Source of the DNA: Rhodococcus sp. KBS0724
GTDB lineage: Bacteria; Actinomycetota; Actinomycetes; Mycobacteriales; Mycobacteriaceae
Assembly (NCBI RefSeq): GCF_005938745.2
Contig: NZ_VCBX02000001.1
Coordinates: 4,106,501 to 4,170,500 of the forward strand
Direction: 5' to 3'
DNA: 64,000 nt
The notes beneath the pieces were generated by a model, which was given only the letters and a program-made list of their open reading frames with translations, did no database searches and was not told where the DNA came from. The position numbers and the translations under genes are program-made. Positions within the stretch are counted from its first letter, which is position 1; each line of letters starts with the position of its first letter. Shown here one piece after another: positions 2,648 through 44,407 of this stretch.

Positions 2648-2929
2648 ATGCGACAGAGAATCCCGAGCATCGCGGAACGTACGGAAGTCGCCATCGAGCT
2701 CGGCATCATCAAGCCGGGCGAGGAACTGACGCCGCGCCTGCAGAAGAAGCTCGCGCAGACAATCCAGATCGCCGAAGGAGAAGAGGCCGAAGCTGTGGAA
2801 GCGGCTGCCTCTGATCCTGTCGTGCTGATCGCCAAAGTCCATGCCGACCTACTTAAGGCCGGCCTCACATCTTTCGCCGCCGACCGTATTGCGGCGGCCA
2901 TCGCGCCACAAATTTGGCGCGACAACTAA
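2648..2929 (+). CDS. Unknown phage tail-region protein (93 aa)
   Basis: ATG 2648 has GGGAGAG upstream at 2640-2645. The protein is mostly helical and acidic, with 'IAEGEEAEAVEAAA' in the middle and 'VHADLLKAGLTSFAADRIAAAIAPQI' as an amphipathic C-terminal helix. It lies between tail tube and chaperone genes, 10 nt before the latter, so it is probably co-transcribed. It may be a tail-assembly accessory factor (inference from location). I recognise no domain. Confidence 0.5.
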   Translation: MRQRIPSIAERTEVAIELGIIKPGEELTPRLQKKLAQTIQIAEGEEAEAVEAAASDPVVLIAKVHADLLKAGLTSFAADRIAAAIAPQIWRDN

Positions 2930-2939
2930 GGAGCTGCAC

Positions 2940-3443
2940 ATGCCCTCAAATACTGATTTTGACGCCTTTGACGACGGCAATAAGAGCGTCGAGGAATTGG
3001 CTGTCGAGGTCGCTGAAGCGCGACTGGCAGCCGCACGAGCCCGCGCCGACGAGTCCGAAGACTACGACGATGTCGAGGAAGTGGAGGCTGCAGTTCCTGC
3101 GCCCGCCCCTAGCCCGAATCGTGCGACTCGACGAGCTGCGGCACGAGCGCCGAAGCCGAAAGCCGAACCGAAGCAGGAGCAGTCGACGGGCCGCGAGGAT
3201 GAGGCAGTCGAGGACACCCTCGAATTCAACTTCAACGGAGTCGCGTACACCGCGCCGGTCGCAGGCCGCACTCGAGGTCTCGTCGCCGCCATGGAGGATC
3301 AGAGCGTTCGGCGCATCCTCATCTCAATTCTCGGACATGAGCAGTATGAGGATTTCCTCGAGACGGACCCGTACGACTCCGAATACATGGAACTGTTCCG
3401 CACCTGGGCAAAGGCGGCAGGTTTCCGGATGCCGGGAAACTAG
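2940..3443 (+). CDS. Tail assembly chaperone, short form (gpG-like)
   Basis: 167 aa. ATG 2940 follows AAGGAG at 2928-2933. The acidic, charged N-terminal part and an Ala/Pro/Lys linker (about residues 50-85) precede a conserved 'TLEFNFNGVAYTAP' beta segment and a helical end. The stop TAG 3441-3443 immediately follows a GGGAAAC heptamer in register. This is the classical gpG of the gpG/gpGT pair, which coats the tape measure during tail assembly and is absent from the finished tail. Position directly before the tape measure gene supports it. Confidence 0.8.
   Translation: MPSNTDFDAFDDGNKSVEELAVEVAEARLAAARARADESEDYDDVEEVEAAVPAPAPSPNRATRRAAARAPKPKAEPKQEQSTGREDEAVEDTLEFNFNGVAYTAPVAGRTRGLVAAMEDQSVRRILISILGHEQYEDFLETDPYDSEYMELFRTWAKAAGFRMPGN
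3434..3440 (+). promoter_or_regulatory. -1 ribosomal slippery site GGGAAAC
   Basis: GGGAAAC lies in register as G GGA AAC, one codon before the stop TAG of the short chaperone. It is a canonical X XXY YYZ heptamer of the type used in siphovirus G/GT genes. GC-rich sequence just downstream (GATCCGCGACCGGGGGG region) could supply a stimulatory structure; I have not folded it. Confidence 0.8.
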
Positions 3444-3847
3444 TCAGCCTCCTGGTCGCGATCCGCGACCGGGGGGACGCTATCGAGGCGGACCTGATGC
3501 GCTACTACCGAGTTGAATTGCGGGATCTTTTTCGGCCTAGTGGTGGCGCATCCAAACTCACCCTGCGGTTGCTGTGGGTGTACATCCGGCACTTGCCGGC
3601 AGATTCAGCGCTCGCGATATCTGAGAACGGCGGCACTCAGCCGTGGACGCTTGCCGATCATCTCGCAGCCGATACATGGCTGGCGATCGTGCAGTCGAAC
3701 TCACCCAAGGGCAAGGCCCCGAAGGATCACCCGGCACGTGAACGTGTCAAGAAGAAGTTGACCTCCAGCAAGGCGACCAAGAGTCGCAGTGCTCACGATC
3801 GAGCAAAAGCGCGCAACGCCGAAAGGCTCAGGCTCGCAGGACGATAG
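3440..3847 (+). CDS. Tail assembly chaperone, frameshifted T part (gpGT)
   Basis: Made as a fusion: translation of 2940-3440 shifts -1 at the slippery G GGA AAC (3434-3440) and continues for 135 codons to 3847. The region read only after the shift begins LVSLLVAIRDRGDAIEADLM and runs into RYYRVELRDLF, the conserved pattern of the second actinophage chaperone; it starts upstream of the first ATG in this frame (3497), which argues for the fusion rather than separate initiation. The C-terminus is very basic (KARNAERLRLAGR). The gpG:gpGT ratio is set by shift efficiency. Confidence 0.8.
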   Translation, partial: LVSLLVAIRDRGDAIEADLMRYYRVELRDLFRPSGGASKLTLRLLWVYIRHLPADSALAISENGGTQPWTLADHLAADTWLAIVQSNSPKGKAPKDHPARERVKKKLTSSKATKSRSAHDRAKARNAERLRLAGR

Positions 3848-3859
3848 GAGGCGACAGCC

Positions 3860-6800
3860 GTGGCATCAATCGGGTGGGCAGGCCTGCAGATCATCCCGAC
3901 CATCAATGGTGTGGCGGGGCAGATCAGCAGTCAACTCGTTACGCCGCTTCAGCAGGGTGGACAGCAGGCCGGCCAGGCTGCGGGACAGGGTGTGGCGAGT
4001 GGCCTCACCTCGCAGCGTACGACTGTCGAGAAGGCTTCGGCGCAGCTCGCGGCGGCTCGCGGTAAGGAAGCTGACGCCGCGGGCAAGGTCCGTGTCGCAG
4101 AGCTGAAGCTGCAAGAACTCCGGGACAAGGGCACCGCGTCGGCGTCACAGATCGCCGCCGCCGAGGAGCGTCTCGCCACCGCCAACCGTGGACATGACAA
4201 CGCGATGGCGGGCCGAGTCCGGGCGGTCAACAACCTGACCGAGGCTCGTGCTCGTGCCGCGAACGGCGCCGACGAAGAAGCCGATGCCGTCGATGACGCC
4301 ACCGACGCACAGGAACGCAACGGTGACAGTGCTGTCGATCTGGCAAAGAAGCTCGGCGGCCTTGCCATCGCAGCCGCAGGTATCGGGTCGGCAATGGACC
4401 TCGCCACACAGAGTATGGAGAAGTCTCAGCTCGGCTCGAAGCTCGCCGCATCGCTGGGCGAGTCACCGGAAGAGGCAAAGCGGTACGGCGAGGTTGCAGG
4501 CAATCTGTACGCCTCCGGCATTGGCGAGTCCATGGAAGACGTTGCCGCATCCGTTGCCGCAGTAAGCGGAACCTTCGGATCACTCGACAGCATGGGCGCC
4601 GGTCGCCTGGAGGAACTCTCGGGCAAGGCGTCGAATTTCGCGGCGGTATTCGATCAGGATGTCGCAGGGTCGATCGAGACTGCCGGCCTGATGATGCAGA
4701 ACGGTCTCGCGGACAATGCCGATCAGGCATTCGACCTGATGACTCGCGGCATGCAAGAGGTTTCGGTTGGGATGCGGGAAGAGATTCCGGCGATCCTGAA
4801 CGAGTACGGCACAAACTTCCGCGCTCTTGGCTTCAATGGCCAGGACGCTTTCAACATGCTGATCTCAGCATCGCAGGGCGGTGCGATCGCCCTCGATAAA
4901 ACGGGTGACGCGCTTAAGGAATTCACGATCCGTGGCGCTGACATGTCCACATCATCGGTCGATACGTTCAAGCTGATTGGACTGTCGGGCGAGGAGATGG
5001 CGAATGCTATCGCGACTGGTGGCGCGGGCGCGCAGGAGGCCTTGCAGAAGACTGCTGCCGGACTGCTCAAGATCGAGAATCCTGCAGAACGAGCAAATGC
5101 TGCGATCGCACTCTTCGGTGCACCGCTCGAGGATATGTCCGTCGACAAGATCCCAGGATTCCTCGAGTCTCTCGCCGGGACTGAAGATGTCATGGGCGAC
5201 GTCACGGGCGCCACCGATGAGATGACGGCGACTCTAAACGACAATGCGGGGTCGGCATTCGAGAACATGAAGCGGGCCATCACCGGCGAGCTTCTGGGTG
5301 GTCTCGAGTCGATGGCGGACTGGGTTGGTCGAAATACCGAGCTACTGAAAACTATTGGCACAGTCATTGCGCCACTCGTTATCGGGCTCGTGGCGTACAA
5401 GGCCATCACACTCGGCATGGCCGCCGCGACTGCGACATGGAATGCGATCCAGATGGTTCTCAACGGGACCATGATGCTCAACCCGGTCGGGTTGATCGTC
5501 GCGGCAATTGCTGGACTCGTGGCGATCGTCATCCTGATTGCCACGAAAACGACATGGTTTCAAACGATTTGGGAAGTCGTTTGGAATGCCGTGTCGGCGG
5601 CGTGGGACTGGGTATGGGGAAAACTCAAGGAAGGCTTCGAACTTCTCAAGGGTGCGTTCCAGGCTATCGGCGACAAGGCCGGTGAGGTCAAGGATTGGGT
5701 CGTCCGCAAGTGGGACGAGATGGTCGGATTCGTCACTGGGCTCCCGGGCCGGATCTCATCTGCAGTTTCTGGTATGTGGGACGGCGTCAAGGATGCTTTC
5801 AAGGGCGCCTTGAATTGGATCATCGACAAGTGGAATAACTTCCGCATCCCGGCGATACGTGTGGCTGGCGTTCAGGTCAGTCCGGAGATCAACTTTCCGG
5901 ACATCGCACGTTTCGCTGCGGGTGGTGATGTGACCGGTGGCGTTCGAGGCAAGGACTCGGTCCTGGCGATGCTCATGCCAGACGAGCACGTGTGGACGAC
6001 TAAGGAAGTCGCTGCAGTCGGCGGTCACGGTGCCATGTTCCGGATGCGTGAGGCTGCCCTGATGGGTGACCTTCCAGCCTTCGCAACGGGCGGCGCGGTC
6101 CAGGGTCCAGGCATCAACCGGGACAAGCCGAAGTCCGCTTTCGCGGGCGTGCAAACTACCGCAACGGCATCGGTTCCAACGTCAGCTTTCGCGGGCGTGA
6201 CAACCGGGGCAACGGCTACCGCATCCGGGCCGCCATCAACGTTCTACAAGGATATGTACGGCAACGGAACATCAGCTCCGGCTCCGACGATTGCCGTCAC
6301 GGGCAATGGTGGTGGTGGTGGTGGCGCGTCTGGAAACTCTGGAACCTCGGGCGCATCGGGCGCATCGGGCGGTGGCGGCGGCACATCCAGTGGTGGAGCA
6401 AGTACGGCCACCGCGGCGATCTCGGGAACGGCGACTGTCGACGGCCTGGTGGAGTTCGCCAAGGGTGTTGAGGGTGCGCCGTACGTGTGGGGTGGCGTCA
6501 ACTGGGGCGACTGCTCTGGCGCAATCTCAGCCATCGCCAACTATGTCACCGGCAGAGCACCTTTCGGTTCTCGTTTCGCGACGATGACCGAAGGTGCGGA
6601 GCTGGCGGCACGCGGTTTCCAGTCCGGCCTCGGCCCTGCCGGGTCGCTGAACATCGGCTGGTATAACGGCGGCGAATGGGGCGGTCACACGGCCGCGACA
6701 CTTCCCAATGGCGTCAACTTCGAGATGGGTGGAGCGGGCGGCGACGGCCAGTATGGCGGATCTGCTGCAGGCGCTCGTGATTCGATGTTCACCGACCACA

Positions 6801-7456
6801 AATTCCTGCCTGCAAGTTTCTTTGCATCCACGGCGGGCGGCGCCAGTGGAAGTGATTCGGCATCGAACGGCGGAACGTCAGATAGCTCGTCGGGTTCGGA
6901 TAGCTCGGGCAGTGGAACATCAGCGTCGAGCGAGCCGAAGCAAGTGTTCTCGGGTCGCGACCGTGTCAAGACGATGTTCACGGATATCGCGGGCATCTGG
7001 TCCGACTCCCTGATTGAGATGACGGGCGTCGGCGAGTATCTCGATCTCGCTGACCGGTACACGATCGAGGACAGCAATGCCAGCACGGCGGAGATCAGCA
7101 CCCCGTCGACCGGGCAGGAAGGCAAGGTCGGCAACGAGAACATCGCACCGTGGATCGAGCAGGCGCAAAACTTCCTCAGTGGCGTTGGACTCTTTGACAC
7201 GGGCGGTGTTTGGGAACCGGGAACTTTCGGGTTCAACGGACTCAATGAGCGCGAGTACGTCCTGAAAGACGCTCACTGGAACACAGCCCAGGCCAACATC
7301 GCCAAGGTCGACGAACTTGTCGGCGCCGGCGTGGGTGGCGGCCCTCGGGTGCAGATCACCAACAACAACAACCAGATCATCGCCGACCAGGCCTCCTGGC
7401 AGCGCGATCAGGCGAGCCGTGACCGGTTCGCGCTCATGAGATACGGGGGGAACTAG
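3860..7456 (+). CDS. Tape measure protein with embedded NlpC/P60 endopeptidase domain
   Basis: 1198 aa from GTG 3860 (GGAGGCGA upstream). N-terminus (1-150) is Ala/Gln/Glu-rich coiled coil; about residues 490-575 hold long hydrophobic helices (IAPLVIGLVAYKAITLG; VGLIVAAIAGLVAIVILIA) that would span the membrane at DNA injection. A Gly/Ser linker (about 814-850) leads to an NlpC/P60-like domain (about 855-985) with 'YVWGGVNWGDCSG' (Cys885) and 'GGHTA' (His943), the Cys-His pair of peptidoglycan gamma-D-Glu/DAP endopeptidases. A second Ser/Gly linker follows. It sets tail length and probably opens the wall locally during infection. Confidence 0.9.
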   Translation: MASIGWAGLQIIPTINGVAGQISSQLVTPLQQGGQQAGQAAGQGVASGLTSQRTTVEKASAQLAAARGKEADAAGKVRVAELKLQELRDKGTASASQIAAAEERLATANRGHDNAMAGRVRAVNNLTEARARAANGADEEADAVDDATDAQERNGDSAVDLAKKLGGLAIAAAGIGSAMDLATQSMEKSQLGSKLAASLGESPEEAKRYGEVAGNLYASGIGESMEDVAASVAAVSGTFGSLDSMGAGRLEELSGKASNFAAVFDQDVAGSIETAGLMMQNGLADNADQAFDLMTRGMQEVSVGMREEIPAILNEYGTNFRALGFNGQDAFNMLISASQGGAIALDKTGDALKEFTIRGADMSTSSVDTFKLIGLSGEEMANAIATGGAGAQEALQKTAAGLLKIENPAERANAAIALFGAPLEDMSVDKIPGFLESLAGTEDVMGDVTGATDEMTATLNDNAGSAFENMKRAITGELLGGLESMADWVGRNTELLKTIGTVIAPLVIGLVAYKAITLGMAAATATWNAIQMVLNGTMMLNPVGLIVAAIAGLVAIVILIATKTTWFQTIWEVVWNAVSAAWDWVWGKLKEGFELLKGAFQAIGDKAGEVKDWVVRKWDEMVGFVTGLPGRISSAVSGMWDGVKDAFKGALNWIIDKWNNFRIPAIRVAGVQVSPEINFPDIARFAAGGDVTGGVRGKDSVLAMLMPDEHVWTTKEVAAVGGHGAMFRMREAALMGDLPAFATGGAVQGPGINRDKPKSAFAGVQTTATASVPTSAFAGVTTGATATASGPPSTFYKDMYGNGTSAPAPTIAVTGNGGGGGGASGNSGTSGASGASGGGGGTSSGGASTATAAISGTATVDGLVEFAKGVEGAPYVWGGVNWGDCSGAISAIANYVTGRAPFGSRFATMTEGAELAARGFQSGLGPAGSLNIGWYNGGEWGGHTAATLPNGVNFEMGGAGGDGQYGGSAAGARDSMFTDHKFLPASFFASTAGGASGSDSASNGGTSDSSSGSDSSGSGTSASSEPKQVFSGRDRVKTMFTDIAGIWSDSLIEMTGVGEYLDLADRYTIEDSNASTAEISTPSTGQEGKVGNENIAPWIEQAQNFLSGVGLFDTGGVWEPGTFGFNGLNEREYVLKDAHWNTAQANIAKVDELVGAGVGGGPRVQITNNNNQIIADQASWQRDQASRDRFALMRYGGN

Positions 7457-8379
7457 TGCTCGATATCGCCATCATCGGCGCGAACGGCCACCGTCTCGAC
7501 ATTGCCGGACGTAACGCCGGTACCCAGGGTGTCGTCGCTGCAGCCGGTCAGCTCCAGGGCATCCTTGGCGCCCCAATCAGCAGCGAGTGGAAGCGTGCAG
7601 CACGGGAAAGGGGCGGGCGATTCAAGTCCCGCACCTTCCCGTGGCGCGATATGGCCATCGGGCTGCATCTTTTCGGAGATGACGGCCCGATGGACATCGA
7701 GCAACTCGACGGTCTGCTGGATCAGATGATCACCGACGCCCCGGACGAGTGGGATGACGACGAGGAACTCGCTCGGGTCGTCGTCAAGTCCAAGCGTGAC
7801 ATTCGGCGTCTGTTCATTCAGCGGTACGACAACACGGATCTTGATCCTGAGTACGATCCGACGCTCGAAGATGAGCAGTACCTGAATCCGATCTACAAAG
7901 TTCGTTCGGCTCAACCGTTCTGGGAGGGCCGACCGGACGTCACGCACTTCGAGGCGGGTGCGACGTCGGCTTCTGGATTCATTGAGGTCTGGAATCCGAC
8001 GCCGATCACCATGATTCAGACATGGGTGCTCACTCGGGCGCAGTGGAATGTCCCGGACACGTCGTGGGTCGGCAAGAAGGGGCGGCGCGTTCCGGGCGGC
8101 AGGTTCGTCAACCGCATTGTGCCGCTCCTGCCGATCGACTCCGTTCATGCCGGGGCTCGTATCAACTATGACCCGATGCGTCTGATGCTCGAATCCTGGT
8201 CCGGTACGAACCTTCTCGGCGCGAGCGGTGGCCAGAACTTCTTCATGCACAAGATTCCGCCGTACACCCCGCGGACTCTGCTGCCAATCAGTTACACGGG
8301 CGCCCCCGCGGGGGGTGCTCGGGCGGAACTACATCAGCCGCGGCTATGGCCGAAGCCATTTGGAGGTGAGCTGATGTGA
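7456..8379 (+). CDS. Distal tail / minor tail protein (Dit-like)
   Basis: 307 aa from GTG 7456, overlapping the tape measure stop by one base. It starts LDIAIIGANGHRLDIAG and is beta-rich, with Trp-containing strands in the C-terminal half (FIEVWNPTPITMIQTWVL). The first gene after the tape measure in siphoviruses is normally the distal tail hub (siphovirus-type tail component family), and size and fold pattern agree. It would link the tail tube to the baseplate. It overlaps the next gene by 4 nt. Confidence 0.65.
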   Translation: MLDIAIIGANGHRLDIAGRNAGTQGVVAAAGQLQGILGAPISSEWKRAARERGGRFKSRTFPWRDMAIGLHLFGDDGPMDIEQLDGLLDQMITDAPDEWDDDEELARVVVKSKRDIRRLFIQRYDNTDLDPEYDPTLEDEQYLNPIYKVRSAQPFWEGRPDVTHFEAGATSASGFIEVWNPTPITMIQTWVLTRAQWNVPDTSWVGKKGRRVPGGRFVNRIVPLLPIDSVHAGARINYDPMRLMLESWSGTNLLGASGGQNFFMHKIPPYTPRTLLPISYTGAPAGGARAELHQPRLWPKPFGGELM

Positions 8380-10064
8380 CAGCAGTCGATTTCGACCTGA
8401 CCCTCGCCGAACAATGCGCCGCGATCATGGAGGAAACCGATCGGATTCATCGTGAACTCGAGCGGATGCGCAATACTCCACCGCTGCTCCGCCTCTGGAC
8501 GGGCGCGAACTGCGACCTAGTCCACATTGTCGAGTGCGAAGACGATGCGAGATGGGAAGATCCGGAGCTTGATACCGGTGTCGGCACCCTGAAAATCGAT
8601 TTTTCGATGCCGCAAGCACAGTGGCTCAACGACATGCACGGCCGTATGGAGCGCGGCGAGAAGATCAACGTCATTGTTTCGGTCGATTACATGGGCATTC
8701 GCTGGTCGGGGCTCATGAAAGAGGTCGGTGTCGAGACGGATGACCTCGGATATTCGGTACTGACGGCCACGTTCCTGTCCGATTTTCAGCAGCTCAAGAC
8801 GAAGCTGCTGTGGTCGACGCCGGTTATGCCTGCGATTTTCCAGCCGATCAAGGTGTTCGGGCTTGCGGGCCCGATCCCGTGGGTGGTTCTCGGCGCACTG
8901 CATATCAATTTGCGGCGCGAGAACTCGCCGATCCTCACCCTTCCCGATGATCCGCTGAAGTTTTCGTCGTGGTGGGAGGGCTACGACATGTCCACATGGA
9001 CTGTCGTCACCAAGCCTGGCAGCTTCATGGACGGGGTTGCCTCGGGTGTTCCGTGGGGCAAGCTGACGTCCCGCTTCAAGTACTGGCATGAGGCTGCAAC
9101 GGCGATGCTCGCGGACGGCGAGCAGTCGCTGCAGTGGCGGCGCTGGTTCACCGGTGACCCGCTTCCGTGGCCCAACGCGAAATTGCGTCACGGCGCGCTC
9201 GTTGTGTGGGTCGAGGACAAGTCCGGAATCTTCGCAGGAACGTCCAATGGCGGCACCTGGTTCGACGGACTCAAGCGAAACATTCGCTCGTACACCGATG
9301 ACTTCTACGAGGACATTGACGAGGCGATTACGGGGATGCCGACTGTCGCGGACTACCGCGTTCCGGGCAAACGCCTGACGGACGCCCGAGTTCCGTACGT
9401 CTACTACCCGCCTGACAGCCCTGGTGTCATTCGCTCGAGCTTCCGGCAGAAGTTGCCGGGCCCGGTGCAGCTCGTCACCGGTGGTTCGTCGATGCCGGGC
9501 GTCAATGAAACTATGGGTGCCCTCGTGCAGGGCGTCTTCGATGTCGTCGGCAACGCTCTGCAGTTCGGATCGGTCGGCGGGTCCATTGACCGAATCCTGG
9601 CCCCGTTCTACGAGGACACTGTGGCCGCGTGGATTGCGGTCAAACTGCTACGGCGGGCGCAACAGGTGGGTGACTTCCGGGAGTTCGAGTACTTCATTGC
9701 CTCCGGCGGCAAGGCGTACACGCTGGACTCACTGGCGGCGATCCGTGCCGGCGCTTACGAGACGCGCACGATCTTCTCAGGCTCGATGGAAATCGCCAAT
9801 GCCGCACCGTATGTCATCGGCGCACCGGGTATCGGTCACTTCGACCGCGGTGATCGTGTCGCAACCCGTATCCCTGGTGATCTGACGCAGCGGATTCATG
9901 TCGAGCGTGTCTCGAATCGAATCATCGCGTGGGGTGTGGACCGGGTTGTGGATGTCGAGATCGTTCTCGGCGGCGAGAAGCTGCAGCAAGACCCGATCCT
10001 GCGACTGATGTCCGAGATCGCCACCACGAAATCCGAACTGAAGGACATGGGGGTCATGGGGTGA
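8376..10064 (+). CDS. Minor tail protein, ReqiPepy6 Gp37-like
   Basis: 562 aa from GTG 8376. The N-terminal hub-type domain carries 'GTLKIDFSMPQAQWL', 'VSVDYMGIRWSGLMKEV' and 'TATFLSDFQQLKTKLLW', the pattern of the Siphovirus ReqiPepy6 Gp37-like family named after a Rhodococcus equi phage (established family). It is the tail-associated hub protein below Dit, forming the central baseplate. No lytic domain is visible here, consistent with the lytic domain residing in the tape measure. It overlaps the next gene by 4 nt. Confidence 0.75.
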   Translation: MTAVDFDLTLAEQCAAIMEETDRIHRELERMRNTPPLLRLWTGANCDLVHIVECEDDARWEDPELDTGVGTLKIDFSMPQAQWLNDMHGRMERGEKINVIVSVDYMGIRWSGLMKEVGVETDDLGYSVLTATFLSDFQQLKTKLLWSTPVMPAIFQPIKVFGLAGPIPWVVLGALHINLRRENSPILTLPDDPLKFSSWWEGYDMSTWTVVTKPGSFMDGVASGVPWGKLTSRFKYWHEAATAMLADGEQSLQWRRWFTGDPLPWPNAKLRHGALVVWVEDKSGIFAGTSNGGTWFDGLKRNIRSYTDDFYEDIDEAITGMPTVADYRVPGKRLTDARVPYVYYPPDSPGVIRSSFRQKLPGPVQLVTGGSSMPGVNETMGALVQGVFDVVGNALQFGSVGGSIDRILAPFYEDTVAAWIAVKLLRRAQQVGDFREFEYFIASGGKAYTLDSLAAIRAGAYETRTIFSGSMEIANAAPYVIGAPGIGHFDRGDRVATRIPGDLTQRIHVERVSNRIIAWGVDRVVDVEIVLGGEKLQQDPILRLMSEIATTKSELKDMGVMG

Positions 10065-36704: not shown

Positions 36705-37391
36705 ATGGGCGTCGAGGAAACCACGACCAGCGCAGACATACTGGTGCCGGAGGCAGCACTGGGACGTTCCGACCAGACTTCCCGCCAGTACCTACGCTTG
36801 CGCGCCGACATCCTCGACGGAAAGTTCGCCCAGGGCGCCCCATTACATGAAACCCAATTGTGCGAAACCTACGGCGCTTCCCGCACTCCTATCCGGGAAG
36901 CCCTCAATTGGCTTGCGCACGACGGCCTTCTCGAGCGCGCCGCCCGCGGATTCCGCGTACGCTCCGGGACCCCCGAAGACGTGATCGAAATCTATGCTGC
37001 GCGAGTGGCTTTGGAGTCCGAAGCCGCCGGGGCGGCCGCACTGCGCCACACCGAACTGGATCTTGCACGCCTCGAAGGGCTTCACGAACAGTGCTGCACG
37101 GCCACCGACGGCGCCGCGGTTCGGGCCGGCAATTTCAAGTTCCACGAAGCACTCTGGCAGTCTGCGCACAACGCCACGATCACATCACTTCTGATCAGAT
37201 TGACTACCCAACTACGGATCTACGACAGCGGCCCGCCGTCCAACTACGGTGAACCCGACCTGCTGAACTCCGAACATCAGGACATCCTGGCCGCAATCCG
37301 CGGTCGCGACGAGAAGTCCGCCCGCGAACATATGCGGGCTCACCTCGAACGCAGTCGTGAGCAACGCATCAAAATGTTTGCAGGTCGCTGA
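36705..37391 (+). CDS. GntR-family regulator (FCD/FadR type)
   Basis: 228 aa, ATG 36705 with GAAGGAACGGGG upstream. Winged HTH at about residues 25-90 ('LHETQLCETYGASRTPIREA', 'HDGLLERAARGFRV'), followed by an all-helical FCD ligand domain with metal-binding His/Asp residues ('FHEALWQSAHN', 'EHQDILAAIRGRD', 'HMRAHLERS'). It probably responds to a carboxylate ligand. It is divergent from the sulfurtransferase-thiM-monooxygenase operon with a palindrome between, so it is very likely its repressor. Confidence 0.85.
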   Translation: MGVEETTTSADILVPEAALGRSDQTSRQYLRLRADILDGKFAQGAPLHETQLCETYGASRTPIREALNWLAHDGLLERAARGFRVRSGTPEDVIEIYAARVALESEAAGAAALRHTELDLARLEGLHEQCCTATDGAAVRAGNFKFHEALWQSAHNATITSLLIRLTTQLRIYDSGPPSNYGEPDLLNSEHQDILAAIRGRDEKSAREHMRAHLERSREQRIKMFAGR

Positions 37392-37487: not shown

Positions 37488-37522
37488 TTAGGCAAGTCAA
37501 CCCTTAGCAAGGCTATGCTAGC
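37488..37522 (+). promoter_or_regulatory. Overlapping IdeR/DtxR-like iron boxes
   Basis: TTAGGCAAGTCAACCCTTA (37488-37506) and TTAGCAAGGCTATGCTAGC (37504-37522) resemble the 19-bp IdeR/DtxR consensus TTAGGTTAGGCTAACCTAA (about two thirds of positions each). They lie 70-100 nt upstream of the uptake operon, fitting Fe-dependent repression. Confidence 0.5.
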
Positions 37523-37591
37523 TTTACTTCCGCTAGAAATTGATTTCAGTTTTCGATAACCATCACCACGCCAAGTCTTTTCGGAGAAACC

Positions 37592-38755
37592 ATGCCCCCG
37601 AAGCACACCCCATCCCCTCTTGCCGGCGCCCTGACGCGGCGCCAACTCATCCGCTCGATGGGCGTCGCAGCGGCAGCACTCGGAGCTTTCGGCGTTACAG
37701 CGTGCTCGTCTCGGACGCCGGTGTCCGAGACTGCGTCGACCGGCCCCAGCACCGGTCCGTTTACCGTAGTGGATCAGTACCAGAACACGATTACCTTCGA
37801 CACCCCGGTCGGCCGGATCGCGTCCGCAATCATCCCCGTTCCGTCGATGATTGCCGGTTCCGATCAGTCGATCTCGCGCAACGTCGGCGTCAACTCGAGC
37901 GCGATCTCGCTTGCCAAGAACGGCATGCTCGGAGTGATGTTCCCCGAATTCCTCAATACCCCAGTCGTTTCGGGACCCGACTTCGTCCCGAACGTCGAAC
38001 AGATTCTCTCCCTCAACCCGGATGTCGTCATACAGTGGGGCGACAAGGGCGACGACATTGTTGCGCCACTGCGCAACGCAGGCCTCAAGGTCATCCTCCT
38101 CAAGTACGGCACGCAGGAAGATCTCGAAGCCTGGATCAACATCTTCGGCGACCTTCTCGACAAGAAGGAAGAAGCGCAGGAAATCCTCGCGCGCATGGCA
38201 ACTGACCGCAAGACCGTCGAATCCATTGCCGCTGCCAATACGGCCAAGGCGCCTCGAGCGATGTACTTCTACAGCACTCCCGAGACCAAGGTGTCCGCCG
38301 ACAACACGTACATGGACTTCTGGATCACCCTCGCCGGCGGCAAGAACGTCGCCCGCGGCGCCGGAAAAGGCACGAGCGTAGCCGTCACCAAGGAGCAGAT
38401 CCTCACGTGGGATCCCGAAGTCCTGGTTCTCGGAAACTTCGACGCGGCCACCCCGCAGGACATCTACGACGACCCCAACTGGGCATCGTTGAGCGCGGTG
38501 AAGAACAAGCGCGTCTACAAGGCGCCGATCGGCGGATTCTCGTGGGATCCCCCGTGCAACGAGTCGAACCTGATGTGGCTCTGGGTCGCTGAGATCTTCT
38601 ATCCCGAAGCGAAACTCGATCTCGATCTGCGCAATCGTATTCGTGAGACGTACACGTCGCTGTACGCCTACGACGTCACCGACGCCGAAATCGATCGCAT
38701 CCTGCATCTCGAGTCCAATCAGGTGAGCACCGGATATGACTCGTTCCGCGCTTGA
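37592..38755 (+). CDS. Iron(metal)-complex ABC transporter substrate-binding lipoprotein
   Basis: 387 aa from ATG 37592 (GGAGAAACC upstream). Twin-arginine motif 'LTRRQLIRSMG' and lipobox 'FGVTACSS': exported folded and lipidated. Periplasmic-binding domain of the FecB/FhuD/BtuF type: 'FVPNVEQILSLNPDVVIQWG', 'AQEILARMATDRKTVESIA', 'DPNWASLSAVKNKRVYKAP'. Likely ligands are a siderophore-Fe complex, but cobalamin, haem or molybdate/tungstate complexes use the same family. First gene of a five-gene operon. Confidence 0.85.
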   Translation: MPPKHTPSPLAGALTRRQLIRSMGVAAAALGAFGVTACSSRTPVSETASTGPSTGPFTVVDQYQNTITFDTPVGRIASAIIPVPSMIAGSDQSISRNVGVNSSAISLAKNGMLGVMFPEFLNTPVVSGPDFVPNVEQILSLNPDVVIQWGDKGDDIVAPLRNAGLKVILLKYGTQEDLEAWINIFGDLLDKKEEAQEILARMATDRKTVESIAAANTAKAPRAMYFYSTPETKVSADNTYMDFWITLAGGKNVARGAGKGTSVAVTKEQILTWDPEVLVLGNFDAATPQDIYDDPNWASLSAVKNKRVYKAPIGGFSWDPPCNESNLMWLWVAEIFYPEAKLDLDLRNRIRETYTSLYAYDVTDAEIDRILHLESNQVSTGYDSFRA

Positions 38756-39821
38756 GCCCAACCCGGCAGCCTCCGATAGCGAGAAATCCGCCGGAAGGTC
38801 CTCCCGGTACAAAGCTTTCGCCGTTCCACTGATCTTGACGTTCGGAATCCTCGCGATCGGCCTGGCAGCCCTTGCCATCGGCCGGTACACGATCCCGGTC
38901 AACGAGGTCGCCCGGATCCTCATCGATCGGGTGATCCCACTCGAGCAGACCTGGACCGATGTCGAGTCGCAAGTTGTTCTCGGCGTGCGGTTCCCGCGAC
39001 TTCTGCTCGGAATGCTGGTCGGCGGCGGCCTCGCCCTGGGTGGTTCCGCCCTGCAAGCAGTATTCCGGAACCCTTTGGTAAGCCCTCAGGTTCTGGGCGT
39101 CTCGTCCGGAGCTTCCTTCGGCGGAGTCCTTGTCCTGATGCTCGGACTCGGTTCGGCATTCCTGGTCGGTGGAGCATTCATTTTCGGTATCGCCGCCCTG
39201 ATCATGGTGATGGCGATCGGAAAAACCCGTTCCGGCAGTTCGATTCTCATGATCGTGCTCGGCGGCGTGGTAACCAGTGCGTTTTTCTCGGCACTGGTCT
39301 CGTTGATCACCTACCTCGCCGATCCGTACAGCACACTTCCGTCAATTGTCTTCTGGCTCATGGGCTCTTTGGCCACTGCCGACATGGGCAAGGTGGCAAT
39401 TGCCGCCGTTCCCATCCTTCTCGGCAGCGCGGTCATCCTCGGGTTGCGCTGGCGAGTGAACATCCTCTCGCTCGGCGACGACGACGCCGCGTCGCTCGGT
39501 GTGAAACCGCACCGGCTGCGCATGCTGCTTCTGGTCATGGTGGCGTTCATGACGGCAGGTGCAGTCGCTGTGTCCGGTGTCATCGGCTGGGTCGGCCTGG
39601 TTGTCCCGCATCTGGCCCGGTTGTGGGTCGGCCCGGACCACCGCATCTCGATGCCGACGACGTTTGTTCTCGGAGCTGCGTACCTCACGGTGATCGACAC
39701 GCTGTCGCGCACGATCAGTCCGGGCGAGATCCCACTGGGAATCCTGACGGCAATCATCGGTGCGCCGGTATTTGTCGTTCTCCTTCGCAACTCGAGCAGA
39801 AGGGCGTTCATCGATGCTTGA
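38736..39821 (+). CDS. FecCD-family ABC permease
   Basis: 361 aa, ATG 38736, overlapping the SBP gene by 20 nt. About nine to ten membrane helices with FecCD motifs 'VVLGVRFPRLLLGMLVGGGL', 'GSALQAVFRNPLVSPQVLGV', 'LGDDDAASLGVKPHRLRML', 'GVIGWVGLVVPHLARLWVGP'. Forms a homodimeric channel that receives substrate from the lipoprotein. The N-terminal 30 residues are polar and cytoplasmic. Confidence 0.9.
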   Translation: MTRSALEPNPAASDSEKSAGRSSRYKAFAVPLILTFGILAIGLAALAIGRYTIPVNEVARILIDRVIPLEQTWTDVESQVVLGVRFPRLLLGMLVGGGLALGGSALQAVFRNPLVSPQVLGVSSGASFGGVLVLMLGLGSAFLVGGAFIFGIAALIMVMAIGKTRSGSSILMIVLGGVVTSAFFSALVSLITYLADPYSTLPSIVFWLMGSLATADMGKVAIAAVPILLGSAVILGLRWRVNILSLGDDDAASLGVKPHRLRMLLLVMVAFMTAGAVAVSGVIGWVGLVVPHLARLWVGPDHRISMPTTFVLGAAYLTVIDTLSRTISPGEIPLGILTAIIGAPVFVVLLRNSSRRAFIDA

Positions 39822-40605
39822 ACTGGTTGACCTCGGATTCCGGTATCCCGGGCAGGACTGGGTATTTCGCCACACGAACCTCACCATCACGTCGGGCTCG
39901 ATCACGTCGATCCTCGGTCCCAACGGCAAGGGCAAGACCACGCTGCTGCGGTGCATTGCCGGGCTGTCCACCCCGGAGGAAGGTCGGGTGCTCGAGCACC
40001 CGAACATCGGCTACGTCCCGCAGGCCACGGGTTCCAGCTTTGCCTACACAGTCTTCGACATGGTGCTGATGGGCCGAGCGAAAAAGGTTTCGACCTTCGG
40101 GGTTCCCAGCAAAGCTGATGTGGCACTGACTCGTACGGTACTCGAACGAGTCGGCATCGATCATCTCGCGACATCGAATTTCACCGAACTGTCCGGTGGG
40201 CAACGACAACTGGTCCTGATCGCCCGTGCACTCAACACCGACTGCACCTTCATGATCCTCGACGAACCCGTCTCGGCGCTCGACCTCCGAAACCAGGCGC
40301 ACGTACTCGGGCTTCTGCGTGAACTCGCAGCGGAAGGAATGGGCATCCTGCTGACCACACATCACCCCGATCACGCGCTCCATCTCGGCGGCGACGCGGT
40401 AATCATGTTCAGCCCCGAGGAGATCGTCGTCGGCCGAGTGGAAACTCTCGTGACGGGCGAAACCCTGTCGCGGCTCTACGGCATCGACGTCGTCACCGAC
40501 ACGGTCGACGACCGCGGGAAGCCCCGCACCGTGGTCTACACCCGCTACGACAATTTTGCGGCGGCCGGAAACGACCTTCGCCTCACAGAAAGTTCGCTCA
40601 CATGA
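39814..40605 (+). CDS. ABC transporter ATPase (FepC/BtuD-like)
   Basis: 263 aa; ATG 39814 overlaps the permease stop. Walker A 'GPNGKGKTTLL', Q-loop 'YVPQATGS', signature 'LSGGQRQLVLIARAL', Walker B 'FMILDEPVSALD', H-loop 'LLTTHHPDHA'. The C-terminal 60 residues extend beyond the standard NBD, as in metal-chelate importers. Powers the uptake system. It is followed by a 4-nt overlap to an unknown gene. Confidence 0.9.
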   Translation: MLELVDLGFRYPGQDWVFRHTNLTITSGSITSILGPNGKGKTTLLRCIAGLSTPEEGRVLEHPNIGYVPQATGSSFAYTVFDMVLMGRAKKVSTFGVPSKADVALTRTVLERVGIDHLATSNFTELSGGQRQLVLIARALNTDCTFMILDEPVSALDLRNQAHVLGLLRELAAEGMGILLTTHHPDHALHLGGDAVIMFSPEEIVVGRVETLVTGETLSRLYGIDVVTDTVDDRGKPRTVVYTRYDNFAAAGNDLRLTESSLT

Positions 40606-41231
40606 CCGCCGCAACACACGCAACAACTCCGGTTCTGCACTTCGTGATGGGCTCCAACGCCGGTATGGCCGGCGGCACGTCGGACACGGCTGTCGTCCGC
40701 AACGTCGACCTCTACGAACTCGACGCACTGGACTTGACCAGTGTCACCGGACTCATCGTCAACGGCAACTGCGATCAGATCTACTTGGAACGACGCAAAG
40801 ACGTCCTCACGGACTTCGTCGTAGGCGGCGGCCGGATCGCGATCATGGGGCATCCCCTGACGGATTTTCTTCCCGGACTGGGACAGTGGCGCAAACTGCA
40901 GTACTCCGGCCCCAAGGATCTGGCAATCTCGGCCGGTAGCCCCCACCCCGTCTGGGAAGGAGTCGATCCCGCCGATCTCAGTTTCCGCAAGGAAGTCTCC
41001 GGCTTCTACGGGCGCGGCTACAGTCAGAAACTTCCGGACAACGCCATCGTCACCAACTACATCGGCCGTCACGGCCTGCCTGTCGACTACGTCTACCCAC
41101 TCGGCAATGGCGAAGTGCTGGTACACGCAGGAATCGATCTGGCTGTGTTCCAGTCCGATCCGAATACGTCCGCACGTGTCTACCCCCAGCTGCTTTCCTG
41201 GCTTGCTCAGCTCGACCGAACGGAAATCTGA
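40602..41231 (+). CDS. GATase1/ThuA-like protein of the uptake operon, copy 1
   Basis: 209 aa, ATG 40602 in an ATGA-type overlap. Alpha/beta fold: 'VTGLIVNGNCDQIYLERRKD', 'VVGGGRIAIMGHPLTDFLPG', 'SPHPVWEGVDPADL', 'GRHGLPVDYVYPLGNGEVLV'. The strand-loop pattern is that of class I glutamine-amidotransferase-like/ThuA proteins without the usual GxCxG nucleophile elbow. Translational coupling to the transporter means it acts on, or reports, the imported compound (inference). A broken paralogue lies at 41951-42399 on the opposite strand. Confidence 0.6.
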   Translation: MTAATHATTPVLHFVMGSNAGMAGGTSDTAVVRNVDLYELDALDLTSVTGLIVNGNCDQIYLERRKDVLTDFVVGGGRIAIMGHPLTDFLPGLGQWRKLQYSGPKDLAISAGSPHPVWEGVDPADLSFRKEVSGFYGRGYSQKLPDNAIVTNYIGRHGLPVDYVYPLGNGEVLVHAGIDLAVFQSDPNTSARVYPQLLSWLAQLDRTEI

Positions 41232-41920
41232 TGACCACCACCGAAACGACAACCCTCGAAGCATTCAACCGCACCGACCGCGCTCCCCTGTCCACTCGCA
41301 ACCTCGCACTGGTGCACGGCGGCTCACACTTTCATCTCCAGACGCTCAAGGATCCGGCCGTTGTCGCGCACCAGCCGGACTTCCATTACCTCGCCGACCT
41401 GCAGCCTGGCGACCTTGACGACGTCACGACGCTGATTCTCGCCGATCGCTTGCATCCGGAGCTACTCCGCAAGCACGCCGCCGAGTTCCTGGCAGTCGCC
41501 GAACGCGGTGGCACACTTGTCGTGCTGGGTGAAAATGCCGCGCACACCTGGCTTCCCGGCGTGACCTGGAGCCCGCGTCCGACCAACTTCTGGTGGTGGC
41601 GAACCGGCGAGGATCCGTTGATCCGTACACGCAGCCACGACCACGAATCGTGGAAGTATCTCACCACGAAGTCTGTGATCTGGCACCACCACGGCCTCCT
41701 TCATACCGACGCAGACGTTGTCCCGCTCCTGATTTCGGAGGAGCCTGACGCAAACGGCAATCCACATGATGCCGGCATGATGCTCTTCGAGGACACCACC
41801 TCGACGCCTGGTCGTATCATCGCCACGACACTGGATCCGACGTATCACCACGGCAACAACTTCATGCCGGGCTCGACGCGCTTCCTCTACGCACTGCTGC
41901 GCTGGGTCGACCACACCTGA
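41231..41920 (+). CDS. GATase1/ThuA-like protein of the uptake operon, copy 2
   Basis: 229 aa, ATG 41231 overlapping the previous stop by one base. Distantly related to copy 1: 'DDVTTLILADRLHPELLRKH', 'FLAVAERGGTLVVLGENAAH', 'SVIWHHHGLLHTDADVVPLL', 'GRIIATTLDPTYHHGNNFMP', 'STRFLYALLRWV'. Rich in His clusters (HHH, HH), which could bind metal. The pair probably forms a heteromer or sequential steps in releasing metal from the imported complex (inference). Ends before a bidirectional terminator. Confidence 0.6.
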   Translation: MTTTETTTLEAFNRTDRAPLSTRNLALVHGGSHFHLQTLKDPAVVAHQPDFHYLADLQPGDLDDVTTLILADRLHPELLRKHAAEFLAVAERGGTLVVLGENAAHTWLPGVTWSPRPTNFWWWRTGEDPLIRTRSHDHESWKYLTTKSVIWHHHGLLHTDADVVPLLISEEPDANGNPHDAGMMLFEDTTSTPGRIIATTLDPTYHHGNNFMPGSTRFLYALLRWVDHT

Positions 41921-41940
41921 TCGTTCGCCAATCGAAGAAC

Positions 41941-41978
41941 GGTGCCCGCATCAATGTATTTCATTTGATACGGGCACC
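41941..41978. terminator. Bidirectional terminator
   Basis: GGTGCCCG pairs with CGGGCACC, inner ATCAA with TTGAT, AT-rich loop. It ends the uptake operon and overlaps the stop of the opposing pseudogene. Confidence 0.7.
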
Positions 41979-42399
41979 GTCAGGTCGTTACCCGAATGGA
42001 CCAGCACGTAGCCATCACCCAATGGGTATACATAGTCGAGAGGCAGCTGCTCTCGGCCGATGCGAGTAGTGACGACGGCTCCAGCCGGAAGTTTCTGCGG
42101 GTATCCGCGAGCGTAAAAACCCGAAACACCCTTGCGGGTGGTCAATTCCGCGGCGTCCACCCCCTGCCACACCGGGTGCGGTTCACTCAGGCGATGCGAC
42201 CACCGGAAGACGCAATGGCCGTCAAGCGCTCTCGTCGCCGTTCGAGGAAGATCTGATCGCAATCCGAGCTGACGACAAGTGCATCGATCGTGGACAGATC
42301 GAGATCGTCGAAGGTGTAGAGGTCGACGTATCGAACTCGCGAATCGCCGGGATAGGTGGATCCCGCGCGCATCACGAGATTCACGATGGACGAGGTCAC
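41951..42399 (-). pseudogene. Decayed paralogue of the 209-aa operon protein
   Basis: GTG 42399 opens a frame with 'RYVDLYTFDDLDLSTIDALV' and 'SSDCDQIFLERRRERLTAIA' matching copy 1 ('RNVDLYELDALDL', 'NGNCDQIYLERRKD'). It stops at 42187 right after GGRIA. The next frame then continues 'EPHPVWQGVDAAELTTRKGV', 'SGFYARGYPQKLPAGAVVTT', 'LPLDYVYPLGDGYVLVHSG', matching the C-terminal half of copy 1. About 27 residues (GHPLTDFLPG...) are missing, so a deletion also broke the frame. It overlaps (GTGA) the gene at 42396. Confidence 0.85.
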
Positions 42400-42917
42400 T
42401 GCGAAACCGTGCTCGGGACCACGTCGTAGATCTGGTCAGCCGGACTTGCCATGACACGATCGGTCATCTCGAGCTTCAGCACGACCAACCGTGCGTCCTC
42501 CTCGGTTGTTCTGTCGGCCTTTCCGACAAGCTCGATGAATTCGTCGACCACAATTCCTTCACGAATGATCAGCGTCACGCTCTGGTCGCGGTAGTCGATC
42601 TGGAAAACGTACTGCGCCAACGTGTTACCACGCTCCGGACGAGCAAGCGCCTTGTCGACGGTGTATCGCCCCTCCGTGACCGCGCGGGTGACCAGTTCGA
42701 AGGTGTCGCGCACGCCGGGTCCGCCGTGTGACGTTGTGATGACCAGTTCGCGGCGCTCGACCGGTCCGTCCACGGCCAACTCCCCGAGCGCGCGCTCGAT
42801 CACCTTGTAGGCGTGTGCAACGCCTCCCGGAGCGAGGGGACCGTGGTATCGCAATGCGTCGTCGAAGGTGAAGTCGAGGATTGTTCCCTGATCGATCACG
42901 GAGAGAGTGTTGGTCAT
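42396..42917 (-). CDS. FmdE-like protein (degenerate) linked to the uptake locus
   Basis: 173 aa, ATG 42917 with AAGGAC upstream. 'FTFDDALRYHGPLAPGGVAH' and 'AYKVIERALGEL' recall the FmdE family signature (FHGHLCPGLxxGYR), but the cysteine is replaced by Ala. Later 'HGGPGVRDTFELVTRAVTEG' and 'NTLAQYVFQIDYRDQSVTLI' fit the second half of the domain. FmdE-like proteins often accompany FecBCD-type metal importers in other bacteria (family knowledge from memory). Possible metal or tetrapyrrole ligand handling. Confidence 0.5.
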   Translation of the reverse strand: MTNTLSVIDQGTILDFTFDDALRYHGPLAPGGVAHAYKVIERALGELAVDGPVERRELVITTSHGGPGVRDTFELVTRAVTEGRYTVDKALARPERGNTLAQYVFQIDYRDQSVTLIIREGIVVDEFIELVGKADRTTEEDARLVVLKLEMTDRVMASPADQIYDVVPSTVSQ

Positions 42918-43075
42918 GATGTTGTCCTTACAGATTTTTGGCTGAAGTTCGAAATCCACGGCATGAAGCCGGCGAGGAATTATTCGGTTGTGGGCATGAA
43001 ATATGCACCGTAATGCGACATCGGGTCCAATGTGGCAACTACCAACGTACCTCCGGACGTACCCCCACAGACAAA

Positions 43076-43125: not shown

Positions 43126-44253
43126 TCAGTAATCGGCCTCGGTGTACAGGATCATGCCGCGCAGATTCTTTCCGGCGAGCATGTCTGCGTAGCCCTCGTT
43201 GATCTCCTCGAGCTTGTAGGTGTTGGTCACCAACTCGTCGAGTTTGAGTGCGCCACTGCGGTAGTGATCGAGCAGCTTGGGAATCTGGGAACGCGGGCCG
43301 ACACCGCCGAAGATGGCTCCCTGCAAGCGCTTCTGGAGCAATGTCAGCTCGAACAGGCTGAGTGTCACCTGCGAATCGGCATAATGGCCCATGCCGACCA
43401 CCACAACCTGACCGCCCTTACCTGTGGCACTGAGGGCAGGTTGAATCATGTCGCCGTGGATCTCACCGACTGTGATCACGGTGACGTCGGCCATCTTGCC
43501 CCACGTGAGTTCGCCGATCGCCGGGATAGCTTCTTCGAGGGAAGCGTAGGTATGTGTTGCGCCGAATTCCATGGCCTTCTGCCGCTTGAATTCAACCGGG
43601 TCGATCGCGATGACAAAGCGAGCACCGGCAGACGCAGCACCCTGCACGGAGTTGATGCCGACGCCGCCAACTCCGATCACCACTACCGTGTCACCGACCT
43701 TGGCGCCACCGATCGCCGTCGCCGATCCCCATCCCGTTGCGACGCCACACCCGAGCAGTGCCGCCTTGTCGAGTGGGATGTCCTTCTCGATCTTGATCAC
43801 CGAGGACTCGTTGACCGTCACGTACGGAGAGAACGTGCCGAGCAGGCACATCTGAATGACGGGCTCACCATCGAGGGTGACTCGATACGAATTGTCCGAG
43901 ATGGACTGCCCCGTAAGAAGTCCGGCACCCTGGTCGCAGATATTCTGCAATCCCTTCGCGCACGACGGACAGCGTCCACACGCCGGAATGAACGCAAGGA
44001 CAACATGATCGCCTTCGACGACGCTCGTCACACCGGGCCCCACCTTCGTCACCACTCCGGCGCCTTCGTGCCCACCCACGGCGGGATAGAAGGGAAGCGG
44101 ACTTGCACCCGTCCGCAGGTGCTCGTCCGAATGGCACAGCCCCGATGCGGCAAGCCGAACCTGCACTTCTCCGGAAATCGGATCACCCAAATCAACCTGT
44201 TCGATTTCCCACGGCTGACCTGGCGCCTTGACTACTGCTGCCTTGACCTTCAC
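43126..44253 (-). CDS. NDMA-dependent/zinc alcohol dehydrogenase
   Basis: 375 aa from GTG 44253 (GAGGAG upstream). MDR superfamily: catalytic zinc in 'GLCHSDEHLRTG', 'GHEGAGVV', structural zinc 'CGRCPSCAKGLQNIC', and Rossmann 'VVVIGVGGVGINSVQGAASA'. The 'AFIPACGRCPSCAKGLQ' stretch with 'GTFSPYVTVNES' is characteristic of the actinobacterial NDMA-dependent alcohol dehydrogenase family, in which NAD is tightly held and a mycofactocin-type carrier accepts electrons (family knowledge). No mycofactocin genes are in this window. Confidence 0.85.
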   Translation of the reverse strand: MKVKAAVVKAPGQPWEIEQVDLGDPISGEVQVRLAASGLCHSDEHLRTGASPLPFYPAVGGHEGAGVVTKVGPGVTSVVEGDHVVLAFIPACGRCPSCAKGLQNICDQGAGLLTGQSISDNSYRVTLDGEPVIQMCLLGTFSPYVTVNESSVIKIEKDIPLDKAALLGCGVATGWGSATAIGGAKVGDTVVVIGVGGVGINSVQGAASAGARFVIAIDPVEFKRQKAMEFGATHTYASLEEAIPAIGELTWGKMADVTVITVGEIHGDMIQPALSATGKGGQVVVVGMGHYADSQVTLSLFELTLLQKRLQGAIFGGVGPRSQIPKLLDHYRSGALKLDELVTNTYKLEEINEGYADMLAGKNLRGMILYTEADY

Positions 44254-44407
44254 CAGCACTCCTCGAAATTCTTCGTGATGCACGGACGACGACGGATCGA
44301 ACCGAGGCACTGTGTCCCCGATCACACTCCACTGACGAGTGTGCCCGATGATGACAAAAAATGTTGCCGCTCAGACAATCACTTTCCGACGCGACAATGC
44401 CGCCACA

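Follow-up and report, generated by a model that had tools for sequence, protein, structure and literature searches.

The window studied here is a stretch of 64,000 nucleotides from Rhodococcus sp. KBS0724 (contig NZ_VCBX02000001.1, positions 4,106,501 to 4,170,500), whose plus strand carries one tightly coupled operon (37592-41920) with genes for a substrate-binding protein (SBP), a FecCD-type permease, an ATPase and two proteins of 209 and 229 amino acids, hereafter 209 and 229. Our study gives about an even chance to the reading that this operon imports an iron chelate, that 209 and 229 act on the chelate after import as a cytosolic heterodimer, and that an FmdE-like protein encoded on the opposite strand is auxiliary to them. 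An earlier note on this DNA had described a FecBCD-type importer together with 209 and 229, and all of these genes were found, with Pfam matches for the importer and with overlapping frames.

The SBP, of the FecB/BtuF type (37592-38755, PF01497, E 4.7e-23), is followed on the same strand by the permease (38736-39821, PF01032, E 7.4e-85), the ATP-binding cassette (ABC) ATPase (39814-40605, PF00005, E 4.4e-26, its ATG start read from the sequence), 209 (40602-41231) and 229 (41231-41920). A Peripla_BP_2 SBP, a FecCD permease and an ABC_tran ATPase therefore stand together, all above the Pfam cut-offs, as in a FecBCD-type importer. According to the open reading frame (ORF) coordinates, the frames overlap by 20 nt (SBP/permease), 8 nt (permease/ATPase, counted from the ATG at 39814), 4 nt (ATPase/209, ATGA) and 1 nt (209/229, TGATG), in agreement with the translational coupling of the importer to 209 and 229 that had been claimed. 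The nearest solved relative of the SBP is 4ovk (E 3e-54), which is titled only "periplasmic binding protein" and names no ligand. No NCBIfam cut-off was reached by the SBP or the permease, and none by the ATPase among the matches listed (25 of 195). A perfect, terminator-like 9-bp inverted repeat, read from the sequence, lies at 41940-41979 between this operon and the convergent unit, and a regulator gene of the GntR/FCD type lies upstream (36705-37391), its best NCBIfam match being a phosphonate-related regulator, far below the cut-off.

Neither 209 nor 229 has a Pfam assignment or a meaningful NCBIfam match, and a pair of this type is named in no title or abstract opening of the literature searched, which is not proof of absence. 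The two families are homologous to each other (hhalign profile comparison, probability 94.5, E 8e-8). In our locus sample, composed of the best 80 of 367 relatives from named genomes, with close kin over-represented, 229 always has a 209 partner: 72 of the 80 lie within 1.5 kb of it, seven are fused to it in-frame and one is 2.9 kb away. The seven fusions all belong to Arthrobacter, from which two further loci are unfused, and plasmids carry fusions of both kinds, 209-229 in Labrenzia and Agrobacterium vitis and, reversed, 229-209 in Rhizobium etli and Aliivibrio. That fusions occur both ways round argues for a heterodimer of 209 and 229, which is very likely, and the earlier proposal of one functional unit is well supported for these two proteins. 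In the R. etli region (L114), a reverse fusion and a separate 209/229 pair (2879-4162 and 7378-8609) flank one FecBCD set, and an Opp-type importer is also close by.

An alignment of 83 rows shows that 229 conserves the motifs WHxHG and DPxxHHG, along with near-invariant His/Trp/Arg clusters; 209 is a paralogue without the histidine motifs. Both proteins had been called glutamine amidotransferase (GATase)-like, a label that holds for the fold, in a relative of 229, but not for the catalytic cysteine. The GATase fold was recovered in the predicted structure of the 229 half of an Arthrobacter fusion (L059), a relative of the window 229. This model is of middling quality (pLDDT, the predicted local distance difference test, 76.4; pTM, the predicted template modelling score, 0.53), no interface was drawn from it, and the 209 half is barely tested by fold, 209 being tied to the GATase-like family through the profile comparison. 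As for the cysteine, no alignment column of 229 has it in more than 6 of 83 rows, so there is no glutaminase Cys-His-Glu triad; the top column of 209 has it in 27 of 83. In lacking a conserved cysteine and having histidine and tryptophan motifs of its own, 229 differs from the class I GATase/ThuA-like superfamily. The Pfam gathering scores of ThuA (PF06283), DUF4159 and DUF4350 were not reached, the window 229 scoring 14.7 bits against 30.4 for DUF4350 and the best DUF4159 score, in the R. etli fusion, being 25.1 against 25.9 bits.

The importers that accompany this constant pair are of several kinds. The co-occurrence of these families with FecBCD genes in other genomes had been set beforehand as a test, and it was confirmed: a FecCD permease lies within 5 kb in 59 of the 80 loci, and one more (L061) has it at 5.7 kb. 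By comparison, the 7.25 Mb host genome has 11 FecCD matches, from which we estimate that a random position would lie this close to one in about 1-2% of cases. Opp-type systems account for nine of the 80 loci and NMT1-type systems for eight, and three carry no importer assignment: L054 (at a contig end), L058 (with an OppSBP match about 8 kb off) and L080. In total, importers of four classes, which differ in their binding proteins, adjoin the pair: FecBCD, Opp/Nik, NMT1 and, in a single archaeon, an Fbp-like system. The Opp, NMT1 and Fbp-like systems share the permease family BPD_transp_1, and FecCD is a separate permease family. The gene orders include FmdE-209-229-OppSBP-OppB-OppCD in Paenibacillus (Bacillota), TonB receptor-SBP-FecCD-ATPase-209-229 in Cupriavidus, and SBP-209-229-BPD permease-ATPase in the haloarchaeon Natribaculum. 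A TonB receptor accompanies FmdE-209-229 and FecBCD in five alphaproteobacterial loci, and in Methylocystis HemP and TonB receptors lie beside the module. On a tree of 91 229 domains, built by a quick method and containing several long branches, the importer class changes seven times, and at least three changes of the FecBCD label are forced by well-supported branches; L030 was left out, as its 229 is split over two ORFs, and L054, L058 and L080 carry no transporter label. Importer genes also adjoin the pair in all nine plasmid records examined out of the 30 with a 229 match (CP007644, CP031587, NZ_CP076061, NZ_CP054613, NZ_CP095398, NZ_CP045348, NC_011314, NZ_CP143315 and NZ_AP023271), two of which have no annotated features and were read by tblastn and hidden Markov models. 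On a Paracoccaceae plasmid, a gene for a HupE/UreJ-type membrane protein lies between OppCD and 209 (L115:6185-7396). No metallophore biosynthetic or exporter family was seen among the recurring neighbour clusters, only some of which were named.

The IdeR-like boxes that had been proposed upstream of the importer correspond to a weak operator region (37488-37525, plus strand) whose best match, at 37488, is only 13/19. No other plus-strand site in the window scores 13 or higher, and this one lies in a stretch conserved across six aligned upstream regions from five Rhodococcus genomes (L004 and L113 are one genome). Stronger boxes occur in other genera. Of 52 actinobacterial loci having an SBP frame, 23 carry a box of at least 15/19 between -200 and +60 of that frame, against five in the remaining 1.2 Mb, which amounts to an enrichment of about 410-fold before the SBP; the SBP starts used are approximate, longest-ORF starts, and the count does not include the 17 loci from outside the actinobacteria or the 11 that lack an SBP start. 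Four of the five distant boxes belong to Opp-type loci, where they lie close to the start of either 209 or OppSBP, and the fifth was not placed. Streptomyces sites at a comparable place reach 18/19, in the form of DmdR1 sites listed in PMC7174319. Boxes of 14-16/19 also occur in nine of the ten Opp-type loci scanned, no more than about 140 bp from the first OppSBP codon in the alignment (L103 has none; L030 was not scanned). In the alphaproteobacteria we found one perfect Fur-like palindrome (L079) and weaker sites resembling the iron control element (ICE), with 12 in 5.3 kb versus 13 in 247 kb; the tests with the Fur patterns and the Irr/ICE consensus are soft ones. No palindrome clearly above shuffles is common to the five alphaproteobacterial TonB loci, and the NMT1 loci have weak AT-rich palindromes.

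The conserved iron boxes in the operons of relatives point to iron rather than molybdate or cobalt, and iron control of the window copy is likely. Nothing seen points to molybdate or cobalt, no test for regulators of these metals having been made. Uptake of molybdate, tungstate, cobalamin or thiamine was considered, as the name FmdE and a permease resembling BtuC might suggest it, and was set aside: neither the SBP nor the permease reached an NCBIfam cut-off, and a search for riboswitches in 14 loci and in the window between 30000 and 48000 gave none at the gathering score.

Since the pair is kept while the importer class changes, in many actinobacteria together with its iron operator, the constant element would be expected to act after transport. 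We propose that the importer brings in an iron chelate and that 209 and 229, as a cytosolic heterodimer, would free the iron or alter the ligand. In this scheme 229 would hold the candidate active site, formed by the conserved histidines of WHxHG and DPxxHHG, with 209 as its non-histidine partner, and the FmdE-like protein may assist in this step in numerous lineages, though not in every one. SIP/FSR reductases and Fes-type esterases, which release iron after import, are encoded with iron-regulated siderophore importers. The pair resembles these cytosolic ferric-siderophore processing proteins in its association with iron-type importers and in the post-import role proposed for it, but neither 209 nor 229 matches their families in Pfam or NCBIfam. 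Cytosolic removal of iron from imported chelates is known for few chelate types. If the pair keeps its iron control while the importer class changes, a common chemical step would be identified, and importers without an assignment could be sorted by their cargo. There is a published parallel for the mixture of importers: opine-like zincophores, one kind of metallophore, are taken up through Opp-type or FecCD-type importers, also in actinobacteria (PMC7438024). Those loci resemble ours in having either importer type, but they concern zinc instead of iron and are defined by biosynthesis genes, and 209 and 229 do not figure in the portions of that article available to us.

The FmdE-like gene of the window (42396-42917, minus strand) is intact and under purifying selection: its ratio of nonsynonymous to synonymous substitution rates (dN/dS) is 0.07-0.17 versus seven relatives, rough values as dS exceeds 1, and closer fmdE pairs (dS 0.24-0.37) give 0.10-0.25. 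The label given to its product is upheld by fold, the predicted structure having the FmdE alpha+beta core of PF02663 (2glz, 2gvi and 3d00), but not by Pfam: the protein does not reach the PF02663 gathering score and has no meaningful NCBIfam match, its genome contains no PF02663 match, and of 40 aligned FmdE-like members 9 match that family when E values up to 1 are allowed, the best having an E of 0.00055. The published ligands His15, His17, Cys19 and Cys55 (2glz numbering) are not reproduced. The family motif FHGHxC reads YHGPxA in the window protein, so that by motif alignment His25 is kept and Pro27 replaces His17, and no cysteine occurs anywhere in the protein, which excludes the published Cys-type zinc finger; judged by its residues, it is without most of the published metal site. 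Of the three FmdE proteins with solved structures, two have Zn or Zn/Ni bound in their core domain, and most genes of the family are said to adjoin metal-ion transporters (PMC2954224). With regard to the link with the pair, an FmdE-like gene lies within 3 kb in 35 of the 80 loci, and the protein is present in 35 of the 40 family genomes with 229 (co-occurrence p 9e-28; two of these 35 rest on a fragment, G335 for 229 and G392 for the FmdE-like protein). Its inclusion in the functional unit is therefore moderately supported, as a common but non-obligate helper. A fold that takes its name from a methanogen operon would in this way gain a testable role in aerobic bacteria.

Some plasmids link these genes to carbon-phosphorus (C-P) lyase. 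In Rhizobium, A. vitis and Klebsiella, a cassette contains a LysR gene, FecBCD, the FmdE-like gene, phnG, phnH, phnI, phnJ and two ABC-type genes, presumably phnK and phnL; the Morganella copy runs into phnG at the end of its record. In Labrenzia, the 209/229 fusion, FecBCD, FmdE, phnG and phnH are co-directional, that copy being cut by the end of the stretch. The plasmid search with FmdE covered 3 of 39 records newly examined, and FecBCD-FmdE-like-phn cassettes with a LysR gene were observed at L119, L122, L123, L124 and L125. With Rhizobium queries, phnG, phnH, phnI and phnJ went undetected across all 80 chromosomal loci, which makes the link to C-P lyase a side branch; phosphonate chelates are a possible substrate. 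It is doubtful, but conceivable, that 209/229, with or without the FmdE-like protein, constitutes an undescribed, transporter-independent enzyme system that would dismantle chemically related iron chelates in the cytosol of several bacterial phyla and haloarchaea behind four importer classes, and to which some plasmids would have added C-P lyase, gaining phosphorus as well as iron from a chelate that bears a phosphonate.

The plasmid cassettes and the Labrenzia run also lend themselves to a different explanation, in which the module acts on an organic nutrient imported under iron control, such as a phosphonate or some other small ligand, breaking it down or modifying it, and iron release is not its role; in the same direction, the solved relatives of the NMT1-type SBP have names that refer to sulphonates, nitrate, taurine and a pyrimidine. 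We regard this explanation as the strongest competitor and still rather unlikely, given that the Rhizobium queries detected none of phnG to phnJ in the chromosomal loci, and given the iron boxes, TonB receptors and HemP, all of which point to iron. A second explanation would give 209 and 229 an accessory or regulatory part, as subunits that gate the importer by docking on it and do no chemistry, as their translational coupling to the ATPase gene and the missing cysteine of 229 would allow. FecCD and BPD_transp_1 permeases differ in structure, and a docking subunit is not expected to go with both of these families as the pair does; moreover, the near-invariant His/Trp/Arg clusters resemble a ligand site, so we consider docking improbable. 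Equally improbable is that the proteins are metal chaperones or sensors that take iron from the importer and hand it on, an idea that draws on the conserved histidines of 229, the metal bound by the solved FmdE proteins and the transporters adjoining their genes, and that is opposed by the rarity of chaperones among GATase-like folds and by the window FmdE-like protein, which lacks two of the four published ligands for want of cysteine and has proline at a third.

It is important to consider that several observations weigh against the iron-chelate reading itself. First, the window box is weak, the four iron-box sites at up to three mismatches in the window genome all lie away from the window operon, and most of the ten plasmid stretches tested have no clear iron box, with a 14/19 site in Natribaculum and weak Fur-like sites in Labrenzia and R. 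etli. Second, the solved relatives of the TonB receptor include heme, copper and B12 receptors, so the substrate could be haem or another chelate or metal, and the presence of C-P lyase genes after FecBCD-FmdE on some plasmids might point to a substrate that contains phosphorus. Third, 229 is rare: of 246 genomes sampled from the phylum, 3 have it at E up to 1e-6, and 5 have the FmdE-like protein at the same limit. Fourth, the FmdE-like gene is loosely associated: a profile built from close relatives found none in the fetched stretch of 41 of the 80 loci, and 11 of 251 family genomes have it without 229. In the 11 FmdE-only loci read (L096, L098-L101 and L104-L109), no FecCD, Opp or 209/229 gene adjoins fmdE, and three genomes of another clade keep fmdE with no FecBCD-209-229 in the stretch and no 229 in the genome, contrary to a strict link. 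Inspection by eye of these loci showed fmdE directly after a cupin-like gene in a related Rhodococcus clade (L104:6661-8211 and L105:7805-9289) and, in L108 (7391-15945), an FmdE-like gene after an apparent response regulator and sensor kinase, with a siderophore-type hydroxylase and a nonribosomal peptide synthetase a few kb off.

The history of the FmdE-like gene in the window was traced by comparison with relatives. The earlier note had described, downstream of it, a decayed third copy of 209. This remnant is real, consisting of two minus-strand fragments (41978-42402) that match residues 107-177 and 6-76 of an intact second-type 209 in Rhodococcus sp. ARC_M6 (L112) with 67.6% and 80.3% identity, but it belongs to the remains of a whole second operon, of the Opp type. 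Upstream of the FmdE-like gene lies a further remnant (42923-43057, minus strand), missed by the note, which corresponds to the C-terminal part of a second-type 229 (E 1.7e-7 over 42941-43057; 79% identity to L112 residues 172-214 over 42923-43051). In ARC_M6, an intact Opp-type operon faces the FecBCD-209-229 operon, in the order OppB (cut by the contig start), OppCD, a further ATPase, a divergent 209, 229b, fmdEb, fmdE and 209b. In three other genomes, including that of the window, fmdE alone is intact, flanked by a fragment of 229b on one side and by pieces of a broken 209b on the other, and in R. globerulus (L113) fmdE adjoins the FecBCD operon with no remnant detected. On the basis of the intact operon in ARC_M6, the fragments in its relatives and the purifying selection on fmdE, the window FmdE-like gene is the kept survivor of a whole decayed Opp-type operon whose 209 and 229 copies are now fragments. 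Beyond these remnants lies a gene for an NDMA-dependent alcohol dehydrogenase (43126-44325, minus strand; TIGR03989, 599.9 bits against a cut-off of 440), which stays close to fmdE in several relatives.

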